Shown here: one piece after another, positions 51,224 to 57,422 of the stretch
How the letters are laid out: the number at the start of each line of letters is the position of its first letter
Numbering within the stretch: position 1 is the first letter of the stretch
Translations under genes and position numbers: made by a program
Notes under the pieces: model-generated
Database searches by the model: none
Told to the model about the DNA's origin: nothing
What the model saw: only the letters and a program-made list of their open reading frames with translations
NCBI GenBank assembly: GCA_032433595.1
Contig: JASWJB010000109.1
Span: forward strand, 56,812 to 120,811
Origin: Conoideocrella luteorostrata
Taxonomy: Eukaryota > Ascomycota > Sordariomycetes > Hypocreales > Clavicipitaceae
DNA: 64,000 nt
Reading direction: 5' to 3'

Positions 51224-51445
51224 AACAACACAGCCCACAGCCCACAGTCTTCTCCTTTTCTGCTCACAACCCGAGGTCCTGAAACATAAGGAATGTTGTC
51301 AGTCAACCATCCAGTTACCGAAAATGTTAGAATACCTAGATAAAATTTAACTATAAGAAGGGGCCTAATTCCTCGTCAATTATCTAGAATACAAGGACAA
51401 TTCCACTGCTTTAGACATCCATAGCTGCTCACTTGTGACACTATT

Positions 51446-51537
51446 TCTCTTCTTCTCTCTCAGATAACCCAGATCAGAGGAATTGAATTGTTTTGCTTGT
51501 TGTTTTGCCTCATCTCCTGGTATCGATACCCTCGTCA
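51446..51537 (+). mobile_element. Partial LTR, 3' end only
   Basis: Matches the last half of the complete LTRs (cttcttctctctcagataac, ttgaattgttttgcttgttg, ggtatcgataccctcgtca). The 5' half starting tgttggaat is missing. The following acgaagccttgtgcttccta is also shared with the other copies and may be the old internal leader. Confidence 0.75.
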
Positions 51538-51916
51538 CACGAAGCCTTGTGCTTCCTACACAAACTTCATCATGACTGGCTAACCACAGGCGACGTTGGT
51601 GGATGCAGAGTTATTATCAAGCAGTAGGCGGTCCTCCAAAACATACCATTGACGATACCGTGCTATAGTCTTGCCACGTTTCGTTCTCGCGACCGATCGT
51701 GCCGCATAACGAACGACGCACCGCACCTTGTCCCGAGTGCTTGCGCCTCCCCTCTCAAAAAGAGATAAACCTGTGCTTGCTCAATAATCAGTAACACAAC
51801 TCATACTGGCCTATCCGGGAAAGGCACGTGTTTTATTTGATCTACTTATCCATGGCTCTGGATCTACGAAGGTAATAAGTATTCCGCATCCTGAGCCCTT
51901 CAAGTGCGAAGGAAGG
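51538..51916. other. Spacer downstream of the NLR, no gene
   Basis: Contains sequence related to the region after the LTR at 61475 (gcttcctacacaaactt, gcgacgttg) and the 3' flank of the NLR gene. No ORF. Confidence 0.4.
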
Positions 51917-54900
51917 TCAAGTTTCCCACTCAGCTAGATTCTCAGCAGCAGACGAGTAGTAGGGATGGCTGGCACCCAGTTTAGCTCGTAATAGCTGGAC
52001 GCAATGCCTCATCAAAGTTTTAGCTTCTTCACCGCGCCCTGTATTCCAAAATGTCCATGCCAAGTTATTCATGCTATTCAGCGTGTCAGGATGATCCTCC
52101 CCTAGCTTCCTCTTGCGAGTCTCCATCACCTGCACCCCTAATTCCGCCGCCTCCCGCCGGCCTTGGTTCCTAAATATTGACGCCAAGTTAGCCATGCTAG
52201 TCAGCGTGTCAGGATGATCCTCCCCTAGCTTCCTCTTGCGGGTCTGTATCACTTGCGTCTCTAACTCCTCCGCCGCCTTCCACCGGCCTTGGTTCCAGTA
52301 TGTTGACGCTAAGTTAGCTATGCTAGTTAGCGTAGCAGGATGATCCTCCCCTAGCTTTTTCTTGCTTGCTTTCATTACTTGTACCTCTAACTTCTCTGCC
52401 GCTGCCCACCGGCATTGGTTCCTATATGTTAACGCCAAGTTAGCTATGCTAGTCAGCGTGTCAGGATGATCCTCCCCTAGCTTCCTCTTGCGAGTCTCCA
52501 TTACTTGCACGCCCAACTCCTCCGCCGCCTTCCACCGGCCTTGGTTCCAGTATGTTGACGCTAAGTTAGCTATGCTAGTTAGCGTAGCAGGATGATCCTC
52601 CCCTAGCTTTTTCTTGCTTGCTTTCATCACTTGTACCTCTAACTTCTCTGCCGCTGCCCACCGGCATTGGTTCCTATATGTTGACGCCAAGTTAGCTATG
52701 CTAGTCAGCGTGTCAGGATGATCCTCCCCTAGCTTCCTCTTGCGAGTCTCCATTACTTGCACGCCCAACTCCTCCGCTGCCTCCCACCGGCCTTGGTTCC
52801 AGTATGTTAACGCTAAGTTAGCTATGCTAGTTAGCGTGTCAGGATAATCCTCCCCTAGCTTCTTCTTGCTTGCCTTTATTACTTGCACGCCTAACTCCTC
52901 CGCTGCCTCCCACCGGCCTTGGTTCCTGTATGTTGACGCTAAGTTAGCCATGCTATTTAGCGTGTCAGGATGATCCTCCCCTAGCGTCTTCTTGCTCGCC
53001 TCTATCACTTGTACCTCTAACTCCTCTGCCGCTGCCCACCTGCCTTGGTTCCTGTATGTTGACGCTAAGTTAGCTATGCTAGTTAGCGTGGCAGGATGAT
53101 TCTCCCCCAGCTTCTTCTTGCTCGCCTCTATTACCTGTACCTCTAACTCCTCTGCCGCTGTCCACCTGCCTTGGTTCCTGTATGTTGACGCCAAGTTAGC
53201 TATGCTAGTCAACGTGTCGGGATGATCCTCCCCCAGCTTCTTCTTGCGAGTCTCCATCACTTGTACCTCTAGCGCCTCCGCCTCATTCCACCGGCCTCTC
53301 AGGCCGTACGCTGACGCTACCATTGCTTTCGACCATATCACATCTTCATGCTCCTTGTTAAATATCCTTTTCCTTGCTTTCATGGCCCAAACTGACAGGT
53401 CCTCTGCCTCTAGTCCGTTTCCCTTTTTGAGGGCATACCATGCCGCCTTGTATAGGATTGTAGCCCACTCTTTCATTGACTCTTTTCCGGCTGGGGGCTG
53501 TGCAGACACCGATTGTGCATGCGGGAAAAGCATCTGGCATTTAGCCCAGTTCTCGTATTCTCCTCCGGGAAACTCTGCGCAGAGCCTTATAATAAACTGG
53601 TGCTTCCTCTGCTCGTATACGTCATGCGCTCTAAGCCACTCAAGTGTAGCTAGCTGCACTAATCTATGCATCTCAAAGGTGGTGCAGTCTTCATTGGCAA
53701 CAATGAATGAGAAGTTCCGCAGTGTTGCAATATCGTTTTCAAATCTGTCATTGTTGCTATAATTGAATTGTTGGGTCGAGTCGCCGTCGCCGTCGCTGTC
53801 GATACTCTCATTATCATCAGCATAATTATTGTGTTCACCTCCATCGCCCATGTCGATCGTTCCTTCACCCTGGTTCTGTTCACCATCGCCGCTTGTACAG
53901 TCGTTTTGGTCGCGCAGTAGAATTTCGGGAATGCCTTGTCGATCGCAGAAACTCATGAGCGAGAGTATGTCTGATGCCGATGGTCTGGTTTTGCGAATGT
54001 AGTCAAATGATATTTGCCACGTAATAAGGATAGAGTTCTTGGCTTCGGCGTCTCGACGGAGTTCTCCACCTTTAAGCATAAGCAGATCAGCTTTTCTTTT
54101 GTCACTGTTGCGAAACTCATCGAGATATTTCCGCAAAGAGTATCGTGGACGCCTCTGCAGAACGTAGGCCGCTGCTTGGACAATGGCCAGTGGCATATAG
54201 TCAAGCGCTGCAGCGAGCTCGGCGGTGCACGCTTCGTAATCGTCTTGACCGAGCTTATTCTGGAAAAGCTGCAAGGCGTCTTTTTCATTCATTGGCTCGA
54301 TCGTAATGATATTGGAGCGCTCAACCAGCTCTAGTGCGGCATCTCTGCTTCGTGAGGTGACAAGGACGGACCCATGCTGGCAGTGAGGGATGTACGATAT
54401 CAGCTGTCTCGGATTTGCACTCTCCATCGTGGTCGCCGCCGCTTCGATACCAGGGCCGGGAAACTTCAAGAAACCCGCATCGTCTACATTATCGAGAACA
54501 ATAGTCCAGGGTCCTGTTCTCTCGTCTTGAAGCCAGTCGTGCACGAGCTGAAATATGTTGGCTTTCGGGTTCTGCCGCCCTTTGACCTTGACATGTGTCG
54601 CAATATCTCGAAAACTCTGTTCGAACCGAGGGCTATTGCTCGCGTGGATCCAAAAGACCCATGTATCGGAAGATCGTTCTCGGACTCGATACGCGTATTC
54701 GATGGCGAGTTGCGATTTGCTTCAAAGGTCAGACTTTTTTCCTAGCAGAGCAAGGCGCCTGGAACGTACCCGACACCACCAAGACCGACGAGCGCAGTAC
54801 GCGATCCTCGCTGGTCACAGCTTTGTTCGATCTGGTCGATAAGGTCTCCTCGTTGTACAAAGTCTCCGTCGCGACCAAAAGGAATCAGAATCGATGGATT

Positions 54901-55069
54901 GGGCGGCGTTTCTGGTCGCTCTATCCGTTCGTCAACGAGGAGGTATGGAGCCAGTGCATCGTTGGAGCTTACCTGGGGTAGCGTAGTAGTGAAATTCCGC
55001 GCTGACTGGCCCGTGGATCGTCCCCGCTTGAAACCCGGAATTGTTATTGCCGAAAGCGATGGTGTTCAT
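51917..55069 (-). CDS. NB-ARC-TPR NLR with N-terminal amyloid-like motif
   Basis: A 1016-residue receptor from three exons: 55069-54973, 54920-54770 and 54719-51917 (introns of 52 and 50 bp, GT-AG, phases agree). Residues 1-32 are a short N-terminal tail: MNTIAFGNNNSGFQAGTIHG then PVSAEFHYY. It holds a G-F-Q-A-G core like the fungal PP amyloid motif and the RHIM. NB-ARC follows: P-loop VGLGGVGKSQLA (about 77-87), Walker B WTIVLDNVDD (about 154-163), HGSVLVTSRSRDAA and PLAIVQAAAYV. An acidic, Asn-rich linker lies near 366-406. From about 560 to the end are eleven TPRs, nine of 42 residues (W-x-AAEELEVQV...LGEDHPDTL). This is the PNT1 architecture (PP motif, NB-ARC, TPR). It is divergent from the PNP gene, with about 314 bp between starts. 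Intact ORF, so probably functional; the ligand is unknown. Confidence 0.9.
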
Positions 55070-55383
55070 GGCGCTGGAAGATAGTTGATGATTTCACTCA
55101 TGGCTCGAGGGCAGTTGATCGCGGGTGCCGGGGGGTAGGAAAGCCTCAGCGACTTGAAGGAGGATGGCTGTGGCTGTAGCTGGTGCGGGAGTGATGCTGT
55201 CAGCAGCGAATTACGGCTGTATTACCATGAGGTTCAGCTGGGTCTAATGATTGGCCGCCTTCCTGCAGGTCGCCCGCATCGTTGCCATGCTGACATGCTA
55301 TTGAAAGCCGTGTCCTCAGCCGCGTCTGCCGTTCTTTCACTAGACTTGCCCTTCCCCTTTGTATAGTTCTTCGCATACCTGCG
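55070..55383. promoter_or_regulatory. Shared divergent promoter of the NLR/PNP pair
   Basis: The only non-coding DNA between the start codons of the receptor (minus) and the effector (plus). Its short length suggests the two genes are co-regulated. No clear TATA or operator could be picked out. Confidence 0.5.
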
Positions 55384-56577
55384 ATGGCCACAGTTAAGAA
55401 GCCAACAAGTCGCGCAGACTTCCGCATCGCAATCATCTGCGCTTTGGCCCGTGAGGCCGACGCGGTCGCTTTACTGTGTGATGAATTCTGGGACGACGAT
55501 GGCGATATTTTCGGCCGGGCGACGGGAGATACCAACATGTATGTCACAGCGCGGTTAGGCATCCATAATATTGTCCTTGCTGTACTTCCTGCGATGGGGA
55601 CAACGAATGCAGCCGTGGCGGCGGCCGGTCTGCGCTCAAGTTACTCCAACCTCAAATTGGCGTTAATTGTCGGAATCTGCGGCGGGGTTCCCAAAATCAG
55701 AGGCAACAGTGCCTTCCTGGGCGATGTTATTGTCAGCAAGACGATCATCCAGTACGACTACGGACGACAGTACCCGGGCCACTTTGCGGTCGAGAAAACA
55801 GTTGACGATAGCCTTGGCCGGGCGAACAAGGATATTCGCGGTCTCCTCGCTAGTTTTGAAACGGAGTTTGGACATGAGCGATTGAAAACAAAGGCTGCTG
55901 CTCATCTCAAATACCTACAGGAAGCAGCAGCTCGCAAACACCGGCGAGCGGATTACTACTATCCTGGAATGACTAGAGATAAACTATTCCTACCGACTTA
56001 CCGCCATTCACACCGAGATTCCTATGATACATGCTGCGGCGGATCTATTAATATATGCGAAGTTGCCGCCAAAGCTTCCTGTGAGGAAGTTGGCTGCAGC
56101 GAAACTAGCCTTGTGACGAGGGAACATACCAGAGGAGAAGGTGACTACTGCCCGGACATCTTCATTGGCTGTCTGGGCTCAGGCAATATGGTTATGAAAT
56201 CTGGAGAGGACCGTGATCGCATCGCCACTCAGCATGATATCATTGCCTTTGAGATGGAGGGCGCCGGGGCATGGGATGAAGTCCCGTGCATTGTTGTCAA
56301 GGGTATCTGTGACTATTCGGACAGCCACAAAAACAAAGGATGGCAGGACTTTGCAGCAGCAACGGCAGCAGCGGTGGCAGGAGCACTACTCAAGTGGTAT
56401 ATACGTGATGATGGCCATGAGGCCATACATGGCAACTCGCGGCAGGAAGCTTCTGTAAAAGCTGCCGCGGAGGACCAGAACCAGCTAACTAGTGTAAAAT
56501 TTGGGGAGCAAAACTCGGGGTTTCAAGCTGGGATTATCAATGGCCCTGTCAGTGGGTTAACTTTTGGAGGAAAGTAA
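55384..56577 (+). CDS. PNP-type phosphorylase effector with C-terminal amyloid-like motif
   Basis: A single-exon gene of 397 residues. Residues about 13-345 are a nucleoside-phosphorylase (PNP_UDP_1) domain: FRIAIICALAREADAV at the start, the phosphate-loop ALIVGICGGVPK, GDVIVSKTIIQYDYG, then the substrate-binding FEMEGAGAWDEVP and GICDYSDSHKNKGWQDFAAA; the Glu and Asp expected in the active site are present. A basic/Gln-rich linker follows, then SVKFGEQNSGFQAGIINGPV and SGLTFGG at the very end. The stretch NSGFQAG..NGPVS is nearly identical to that at the N-terminus of the divergent NLR. PNP domains are common NLR effectors in fungi, and relatives (Detocs) cleave ATP to adenine and ribose phosphate. 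Here the domain is separate from the receptor and would be recruited through the motif. Start is the first ATG. Confidence 0.9.
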   Translation: MATVKKPTSRADFRIAIICALAREADAVALLCDEFWDDDGDIFGRATGDTNMYVTARLGIHNIVLAVLPAMGTTNAAVAAAGLRSSYSNLKLALIVGICGGVPKIRGNSAFLGDVIVSKTIIQYDYGRQYPGHFAVEKTVDDSLGRANKDIRGLLASFETEFGHERLKTKAAAHLKYLQEAAARKHRRADYYYPGMTRDKLFLPTYRHSHRDSYDTCCGGSINICEVAAKASCEEVGCSETSLVTREHTRGEGDYCPDIFIGCLGSGNMVMKSGEDRDRIATQHDIIAFEMEGAGAWDEVPCIVVKGICDYSDSHKNKGWQDFAAATAAAVAGALLKWYIRDDGHEAIHGNSRQEASVKAAAEDQNQLTSVKFGEQNSGFQAGIINGPVSGLTFGGK

Positions 56578-57241
56578 ACATATTTTAGGGAATCTAGCAA
56601 CAATGCACATGTGCTTGCAACATAAGAAAAGTACTCTGGTTTATTCAGTAGCTGAGTAGCAGTGGTGCTGCGCAGGGGTTCTTGTCAGCCTCAACAACTG
56701 TGTACTCGAACATAACGGAAATGGTGACAACGTTCCGGTCCTTGCATGTGGTTGGCAGGTTGTTCCATCCCTTTTGCTGTTTGTCAACAGCCCGCCAATT
56801 GTCACAAGTGAGCAGCTATGGAAGTGGCTCTCTAAAGCAGTGGAATTGTCATTGATTTCTATCTAATTGAAAGGGGGATTTGACTACTGATGACATTCAA
56901 TCTACACTCGGCTGAGAATCACCGCAGGCGCAGCTCGCCTCAGGCGGCCCCCGGCAGGGCCCCCGGAGGGAAGTGATGTAGTACCTGGTGCCGGTGTTGG
57001 TGCTCCTTTAAATAAGCTTATTAGACTAACTTGCGATGTCAATGCTTCTTTATTGCCCTAGCTGGATTAACCTGCAATGTCTAATGCCTCTTACACCCTA
57101 TATGTCTTCCGAGATTTAAGCTTCTTTAACTAGCTTGTTGATTACCTTAACATGTCTGACGCTTCTTGCAGTGTACGTCTTCCGAGATTTGAGCCTCTGC
57201 AACGAGCTTGTCAGATTGTGAAGGAAGCACAGGGCTTCGGG
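56578..57241. other. Spacer with scattered satellite pieces
   Basis: After the PNP gene lies a 3' region with no ORF. From about 57000 to 57230 come three degraded units of the ctaatgcttctt / cgagcttgtcagatt repeat that forms the array at 59060-60560. Confidence 0.5.
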
Positions 57242-57422
57242 TGACAAGGGTATCGATACCGGAAGGTGAAGCAAAACAATAAGCAAAACAATTCAATTTT
57301 TTCGTGAATTTCCAAGAAAGAAGAAGAAGAGAAAGAGGTATGCTGCCAAGCGCGCCGTATAAGAGGGCGCGCTAAGGTGACCACGTGACGTTCGCTCGTA
57401 CGTTTGACGAGGTATTCCAACA
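57242..57422 (-). mobile_element. Complete solo LTR, 181 bp (Ty1/copia-like)
   Basis: On the minus strand it starts TGTTGGAATACCTCGTC and ends GGTATCGATACCCTTGTCA, giving TG...CA ends. The internal landmarks gcgcgccctcttatacgg and tcttcttcttct are shared with 61289-61474, 44320-44493 and 51446-51537. The starting TGTTGGAAT is typical of Ty1/copia LTRs. No internal gag-pol is present nearby. Confidence 0.8.

Follow-up and report, generated by a model that had tools for sequence, protein, structure and literature searches.

Does the NLR gene at this locus of the insect-killing fungus Conoideocrella luteorostrata switch on the phosphorylase-superfamily (PNP) gene that lies next to it, and could a short motif found on both proteins carry the signal? 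The two genes lie in a stretch of 64,000 nucleotides of contig JASWJB010000109.1, here called the window. We consider it probable (roughly 75%) that they form a two-gene fungal NLR signalosome, in which an NB-ARC/TPR receptor would template the PP-variant tag of the adjoining PNP and so fire a nucleosidase. Coordinates are collected in Table 1.

Receptor, effector and shared tag

By our splice reading, the receptor gene consists of three exons on the (–) strand, separated by GT...AG introns of 52 and 50 nt, and encodes 1016 aa. The public C. luteorostrata protein QQS21_006139 (P0121) has the same length as this model and is 100% identical to it over the scored region 1–300. As expected of a fungal NLR, the product combines an NB-ARC domain bearing the P-loop GLGGVGKS with superstructure-forming TPR repeats, and nine TPR units located by pattern search have a mean pairwise identity of 0.69 (maximum 0.98, minimum 0.43). 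Flanking repeats were considered as the borders of a mobile unit around the pair, an idea that was rejected on finding the repeat dispersed in the genome with at least 42 matches.

Table 1. Features of the divergent NLR/PNP locus, in window coordinates
Feature	Position	Strand	Details
PNP effector gene, PNP_UDP_1 (phosphorylase superfamily)	55384..56577	+	uninterrupted ORF, 397 aa, without intron; PF01048 E=1.2e-10
PNP_UDP_1 domain, residues 14-320; putative catalytic E24, E292, D310	55423..56343	+	
Effector-side motif NSGFQAGIINGPVS, PNP residues 377-390, in poorly ordered tail	56512..56553	+	Ses_B 18.8 bits
Divergent intergenic region, 314 bp ATG to ATG	55070..55383	.	
NLR exon 1, bears motif	54973..55069	-	splice reading; public protein QQS21_006139
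Receptor-side motif NSGFQAGTIHGPVS, NLR residues 10-23	55001..55042	-	Ses_B 24.0 bits for 44-residue N-terminus
NLR exon 2, ends inside P-loop GLGGVGKS	54770..54920	-	splice reading
NLR exon 3: remaining NB-ARC, acidic linker, TPR array, stop codon	51917..54719	-	NB-ARC E=1.9e-8, TPR_10 E=5.3e-138
TPR array, 126-bp (42-aa) units, ~9.8 copies	52071..53297	-	Tandem Repeats Finder

The effector belongs with the PNP_UDP_1/MTAN-type nucleosidases both by profile (PF01048) and by predicted fold, and a relative in Pochonia chlamydosporia is 89% identical to it. A structure model with 85 of the 121 PNP relatives in the alignment reached a pLDDT of 80.7 and adopts the MTAN fold; a first model from 21 sequences (pLDDT 52) was discarded. 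Residues E24, E292 and D310, invariant across 21 sequences, align with the E. coli MTAN catalytic residues Glu12, Glu174 and Asp197, where the catalytic standing of Glu174, and which aligned letter bears which E. coli number, are presumed. Glu12 and Asp197 of the E. coli enzyme are named in PDB titles. The tail (residues 341–397) is predicted to be poorly ordered, in blocks with a mean pLDDT of 36–50, and PADLOC matches the protein to its ‘PN-superfamily’ effector (E=2.8e-12). On this model, the window PNP is a predicted nucleosidase that keeps its putative catalytic residues and ends in a poorly ordered tail, and together with the PADLOC match these features argue for the signalosome.

The N-terminal tag of the NLR and the C-terminal tag of the PNP are identical at 12 of 14 residues, and the genes diverge from starts 314 bp apart, just as the sequence-only reading had described. 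When the whole PNP was shuffled 300 times and compared with NLR residues 1–40, the best match over 14 residues reached eight identities (once) and most commonly had five (221 of 300). Codons at the 12 identical residues are the same in six cases and synonymous in the other six, so recent copying of DNA does not explain the likeness. A likeness above all 300 shuffles, with half of its codons synonymous, points to a signalosome. Searching the 46.4 Mb assembly in all six frames with the last 29 PNP residues gave nine matches at E<=10: five PNP C-termini (C109, C140, C251 and the decayed copies C8 and C59), two N-termini of adjoining NLRs (C109, C251), the C-terminus of an effector-like frame that adjoins the C18 NLR, and one match at the edge of contig C326.

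The tag as a variant of the PP motif

Both window tags have a single Pfam match, to the model Ses_B (PF17046), equated in one paper with the PP motif. The 44-residue N-terminus of the NLR scores 24.0 bits, above the Pfam cut-off of 23.2 bits; the whole 1016-aa protein (18.1 bits) and the PNP tag (18.8 bits, the best and only Pfam match of the tail) score under it. Of seven Ses_B matches in the genome, the window NLR (23.4 bits) alone exceeds the cut-off, and another, at C196, lies in a Q/N/G-rich frame, looks like chance and was rejected as a real tag, while a further match lies at C169; the control search gave a weak match in 1 of 14 genomes. All seven tagged whole proteins scanned together stay under the cut-off, one of them (P0006) having no Ses_B match, as do eight of the nine isolated tags scanned, two of which were composites, with Ses_B the sole match of all nine. 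The accidental look of the C196 match, the weakly matched control genome and the short, G- and N-rich tags are what one would expect if two low-complexity ends merely resembled each other by chance, a reading that is hardly credible in the face of the shuffle test, the genome-wide search, the presence of the tag in other genera and its retention on both partners of the homologous pairs compared.

The core of both window tags is GFQAG, with I replacing the second N of PP and N or H beside that I; the core Q is followed by A, at a position for which descriptions of RHIM and PP give a hydrophobic residue. Neither window protein has the strict PP signature, NxGxQxGxN; among the listed relatives it occurs in 6 of 120 NLR starts, and the 120 PNP tails lack it altogether. 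Sigma (GxGxQFN, GGTQN) and PUASM (FxGxGxQxxGxGxF) were ruled out as the tag family, since their patterns are missing from all 240 of these ends and Ses_B is the sole Pfam match; the scanned tags gave no NACHT_sigma match either. Judged by its letters, the window tag is a variant of the PP motif, not a textbook PP. The earlier likening to the PP system is supported by the Pfam assignment and by the NLR tag that passes the cut-off; it is qualified by the PNP tag, which falls below it, and by the missing strict signature. Sub-cut-off Ses_B scores, the missing second N and the A after the core Q were counted against the signalosome.

In 94 of the 120 listed NLR relatives, a tag of the window type lies within residues 1–70, which, with Ses_B as the only Pfam match, argues for a signalosome.

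Related pairs, other effectors and fusions

Two further intact divergent PNP/NLR pairs with the tag on both partners occur in the C. luteorostrata genome, C140 (273 bp between starts; public QQS21_007098/007099) and C251 (238 bp), so that all three intact PNP pairs keep the divergent, adjacent arrangement. Both partners are also present in three other genera: in Lecanicillium saksenae under consecutive numbers (NLG97_g107/g108), and in Pochonia chlamydosporia and Beauveria bassiana, where the two partners are listed with contigs of equal length. These partners and the C140 and C251 pairs support the signalosome. The sequence-only reading had staked its case on the motif persisting in both partners, and it does so in all seven pairs compared, with core glycine changes noted: in C140 and C251 the second core glycine has given way to W in the effector and to K in the receptor, and it is also replaced in the B. 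bassiana NLR.

Such changes bear on an alternative in which the tags serve for homotypic docking and form no amyloid, the PNP being activated by proximity to the receptor oligomer alone. The C140 and C251 pairs stay open despite their W and K, and the core differs from PP and RHIM (GFQAG; I for the second N), as docking would allow; the only Pfam match is nonetheless the PP/Ses_B model, the PNP tail is predicted to be poorly ordered, as expected before conversion, and motifs at the same positions (HET-s, HELLF, PP, PUASM) form prions or amyloid-like aggregates, according to passages of PMC7885112 and PMC9815663. We regard docking without amyloid as unlikely.

The genome also holds decayed relatives (PNP copies C8 and C59, remnants C23 and C554, and a partial pair, C361). 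Among the 120 listed PNP relatives, 17 have a window-type tag, 46 another C-terminal pattern and 57 neither. The small share of tagged PNP relatives (17 of 120) and the decayed relatives were counted against the signalosome.

The tag is not confined to PNP pairs. Beside a PP-type NLR in C18 lies an effector-like frame with the tag; by eye the frame may be SesB/lipase-like, but a Pfam search of its pieces found no domains. A tail of the window type also ends a Stachybotrys PNP (42% identical to the window PNP) and a 271-aa PF17111 protein, named PigL_N in the Pfam copy used and HeLo-like in passages of PMC9815663. The same tail on these three proteins argues for a signalosome.

Shared tails also raise the possibility of an uninsulated network, compatible with the signalosome, in which one receptor tag would address several effectors. 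Over seven pairs, permuted partners matched as well as or better than true ones in 328 of 5040 permutations by identity and 119 of 5040 by BLOSUM, and without C18 in 188 of 720; true pairs match weakly better than re-paired ones, and such weak co-evolution is not used as support. Re-pairing that is nearly as good and the core glycine lost in C140 and C251 were both counted against the signalosome. Cross-pair identities close to within-pair identities for most PNP pairs, the close similarity of the tags of three intact PNP pairs within one genome and the recurrence of the tail behind different effector domains all fit a network, against which stands the divergent and adjacent layout of all three pairs; we consider it possible, if doubtful.

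In C107, a fusion frame of 1234 aa joins a PNP (53% identical to the window PNP; PF01048 E=1.3e-21) to NB-ARC and TPRs, with no tag between the PNP and NB-ARC parts. A PNP-like N-terminus replaces the tag in 5 of the 120 listed NLR relatives (BLASTP, 25–30%); Pfam (E<=0.01) found no PNP_UDP_1 in those five, and PADLOC gave no match for the one submitted to it. These Pfam and PADLOC misses were counted against the signalosome, for which the fusion and the five N-termini argue in spite of them.

The existence of such a fusion, and a predicted fold that is that of MTA/SAH nucleosidases, would also suit an ordinary metabolic nucleosidase beside an NLR, its tag being left over from an ancient fusion or duplication. 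Splitting a fused gene, however, would leave no tag on both products, the C107 fusion has none at the junction, the tag is retained in several genera, and PNP relatives in the genome are many (129 match rows, several from some loci), all of which makes a relic highly improbable.

Known systems and a proposed mechanism

Comparisons with published systems draw on passages of the cited papers. PNT1 of Podospora anserina is likewise an NB-ARC/TPR protein (PMC7885112), so that ‘PNT1-type’ is a reasonable label for the window receptor. That part of the sequence-only reading stands, namely an NB-ARC/TPR protein without its own effector domain and a divergent PNP gene next door; its kinship to PP is that of a variant. 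With PNT1/HELLP of P. anserina and PNT1/HELLP/SBP of Chaetomium globosum, the window pair shares the N-terminal NLR motif, the NB-ARC/TPR architecture (in P. anserina), an adjoining effector with a C-terminal motif, the GxQxG core and the PP/Ses_B naming (PMC7885112, PMC8086366). As in PP signalosomes, adjacent effector and NLR genes carry the motif at opposite ends. The window effector, however, is a PNP-type nucleosidase (PNP_UDP_1), not a HeLo-like domain or putative lipase, and in its motif the second N is missing and A follows the core Q.

The first impression, that no described case with this exact effector was known, does not hold in general: phosphorylase/NLR pairs were published in 2012, and motifs specific to PNP followed in 2022. 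The former are UDP-phosphorylase/STAND pairs with a common sigma-type extension in A. oryzae, A. terreus and M. grisea (PMC3321046), which have the same adjacency and the motif on the effector C-terminus and NLR N-terminus; their motifs are repeats of GxGxQFN and GGTQN, whereas the window tags are PP-like. The latter comprise two motifs exclusive to PNP_UDP, one of which was put through peptide and prion assays, and a variant of HRAM that PNP_UDP effectors carry (PMC9815663). PUASM and HRAM/NLR12 pairs likewise join a PNP_UDP effector to an NLR via a short motif, and PUASM peptides aggregate, its effector-side copy acting as a prion (PMC9815663). PUASM receptors are NACHT or NACHT-WD40 proteins, in contrast to the NB-ARC/TPR receptor of the window; from HRAM the window tags are set apart by the Pfam scan alone. 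PP accompanies ‘both’ pore-forming and enzymatic effectors, the enzyme being unnamed in the passages covered (PMC9815663). None of the published passages covered here describes a PP-type motif on a PNP effector, which the supplementary tables of the 2022 paper could still list; this combination may be the new element. The general kind of pair is already known, and the tag/enzyme pairing looks like a variant of known systems. Detocs PNP and NLR-fused PNP_UDP also use a PNP/MTAN-type enzyme as an immune effector (PMC10197012, PMC11249213, PMC12881547); the window PNP differs in being a separate protein with an amyloid-type tail, and its substrate is putative.

In the signalosome that we favour, the TPR array would sense something and the receptor would oligomerise, whereupon the clustered N-terminal tags (a variant of PP, RHIM-like) would nucleate a cross-beta fold, which would recruit and convert the matching C-terminal tag of the adjoining PNP. 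Brought together or released, the PNP would cleave a purine nucleoside or nucleotide, leading to metabolic shut-down or cell death. ATP is our best guess for the substrate, by analogy, drawn from review passages, with other immune PNPs. A Detocs-like ATP nucleosidase would split ATP into adenine and ribose-5'-triphosphate, and what ties the window PNP to this class is its profile kinship to the PADLOC effector. PNP-domain immune effectors are described as ATP nucleosidases in bacteria (PMC10197012, PMC11249213, PMC12881547).

A bolder picture, which we consider quite improbable, is that the RHIM/PP-like tag is a plug by which one NLR clade can be connected to chemically different killers in turn (a nucleosidase, a pore-former and perhaps a hydrolase), the duplicated PNP pairs C140 and C251 forming a private channel through a candidate W/K hetero-amyloid code, insulated from the G/G pair of the window. 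The passages covered link RHIM/PP-like templating with HeLo-like effectors and putative lipases. If the signalosome is real, such templating would also fire an enzyme able to drain nucleotides and would connect necroptosis-like signalling with self-sacrifice of the Detocs type in bacteria, and the several similar pairs, two with cores altered on both sides, would provide a test bed for private lines versus a shared network.

The tagged gene pair and its copies in the genome

Two observations of the sequence-only reading were confirmed: residues 10-23 of the NB-ARC/TPR receptor (NLR) and 377-390 of the phosphorylase-superfamily protein (PNP) share a tag with 12 of 14 residues identical, against a best of 8/14 in 300 shuffles, and the genes are divergent, with 314 bp separating their starts. 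In a protein search, the public protein QQS21_006139 of C. luteorostrata, a pathogen of scale insects (PMC12352038), has the same length as the window NLR and 100% identity across residues 1-300. When the 29-residue tail of the PNP was searched against the 46.4 Mb genome, nine hits passed E<=10, eight of them PNP C-termini, NLR N-termini or an effector-like frame on contig C18, and one at a contig edge. Inverted repeats of 86 nt (88%), 46 nt (85%) and 26 nt (96%) lie on both sides of the pair, and their sequence is a dispersed repeat (at least 42 matches).

Table. Features of the pair and its flanks, in window positions
Feature	Position	Strand	Remark
PNP gene	55384-56577	+	single open frame
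NLR gene		-	three exons, from splice-site reading
Inverted repeats, one side	51376-51566
Inverted repeats, other side	56800-57298

Two more intact divergent pairs, on contigs C140 and C251, carry the tag on both partners, with starts 273 bp and 238 bp apart, respectively, and PNPs of 65% identity to the window PNP. In both, W on the PNP tag and K on the NLR tag stand in place of the second glycine of the GxQxG core, a joint change in both partners of duplicated pairs. Other relatives have decayed: there are PNP copies of this kind on C8 and C59, remnants on C23 and C554, and a partial pair on C361. C18 carries an NLR whose core, NTGLQVGINHG, is strict PP; upstream of it, in the same orientation, is an effector-like frame with a related tag at its end. 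This frame looks hydrolase-like by eye, and its pieces gave no Pfam match.

Identity of the shared motif

The proposal that the tags are of PP type, a motif written 'PP/ses_B' in PMC8086366, held in part. Ses_B (PF17046) is the only one of 24736 Pfam models scanned that matches the two window tags, and the NLR tag exceeds its curated cut-off; the PNP tag falls below it, and the strict core NxGxQxGxN was not found in either. In Pfam scans the cut-off was passed by none of seven whole tagged relatives and by one of nine short tags (two of the nine being composites). A Ses_B search of the assembly gave seven matches, the window NLR alone exceeding the cut-off, while among 14 control genomes one had a match, under the cut-off.

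Among the best 120 listed relatives of each partner, the looser pattern N.G.Q.G..[NHQSTY]G occurs in 78 NLR starts and 14 PNP tails, the strict PP pattern in 6 and 0, and the PUASM and sigma patterns in none; sigma, which the sequence-only reading had put up for comparison, is thus absent from all 240 ends. In 89 pattern-aligned NLR tags, the residue after the core Q is A in 72, and the second-N position is occupied by I in 61 tags, by V in 13 and by N in 5. We therefore call the motif a PP variant rather than a proven PP member.

Partners, tails and fusions beyond the window

We think that the window NLR and PNP are a working pair, because there are further intact pairs in this genome, partners in other genera, the same tail on other effectors and a PNP-NB-ARC-TPR fusion. 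Both partners were found by protein search in Pochonia chlamydosporia and in Beauveria bassiana, in each case on contigs of equal listed length, and in Lecanicillium saksenae, where their gene numbers are consecutive. In the B. bassiana NLR tag, R replaces the second core glycine. The same tail is carried by P0241, a 271-aa HeLo-like (PF17111) protein on a 1261-base contig, and by P0242, a Stachybotrys chartarum PNP with 42% identity to the window PNP; these two also have a near-identical linker in common, and it looks from their sequences as if effector domains had been exchanged ahead of one tail.

The fusion, on contig C107 of this genome, is a single frame of 1234 aa in which PNP (PF01048, E=1.3e-21) is joined to NB-ARC and to TPRs, the latter with 11 TPR_10 stretches; no tag was found between the PNP and NB-ARC parts. 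The receptor-enzyme link therefore exists both as one chain and as two tagged chains. In 5 of the 120 listed NLR relatives the N-terminus resembles a PNP by BLASTP (25-30%), and Pfam lists PNP_UDP_1 in none of the five. Several NLR relatives, P0122 and P0127 included, bear the public names kinesin or kinesin light chain, presumably owing to their TPRs.

Counted against a working pair is a permutation in which the tags of seven pairs, when re-paired, fitted nearly as well as in the true pairing. The core-glycine replacements, the decayed copies and the tag's minority share among PNP relatives were likewise counted against it: among the best 120 listed, which describe close relatives, 17 carry this tag and 46 a '-Q-G-D/N'-like tail of another kind; the other 57 have neither, and some of them are apparently run-on gene models. 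The second tail type, such as NNSFGNNTLINQGDVGGNLTY, is perhaps the HRAM/NLR12-like motif known on PNP_UDP effectors; one such tail gave no Pfam match when scanned.

Known systems and proposed mechanism

The sequence-only reading knew of no described case with a PNP-type effector, and this claim to novelty does not hold in general. An NLR governing a separate phosphorylase through a shared prion-like motif was already proposed in 2012, with the difference that those motifs are of sigma type (PMC3321046), and a 2022 paper reports two motifs exclusive to PNP_UDP, one of them assayed in vitro and in Podospora, as well as an HRAM variant on PNP_UDP (PMC9815663). Topic searches of the literature turned up no description of a PP-type motif on a PNP; in view of the 2012 and 2022 precedents, it is thus a combination of known parts that may be new. 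If the pair works like PNT1/HELLP, in which prion-forming PNT1(1-31) switches HELLP on (PMC7885112), the PNP tail would be templated by oligomers of the receptor. Three reviews report PNP domains as ATP-cleaving immune effectors (PMC10197012, PMC11249213, PMC12881547); the window PNP is presumed to use ATP and to kill the cell.
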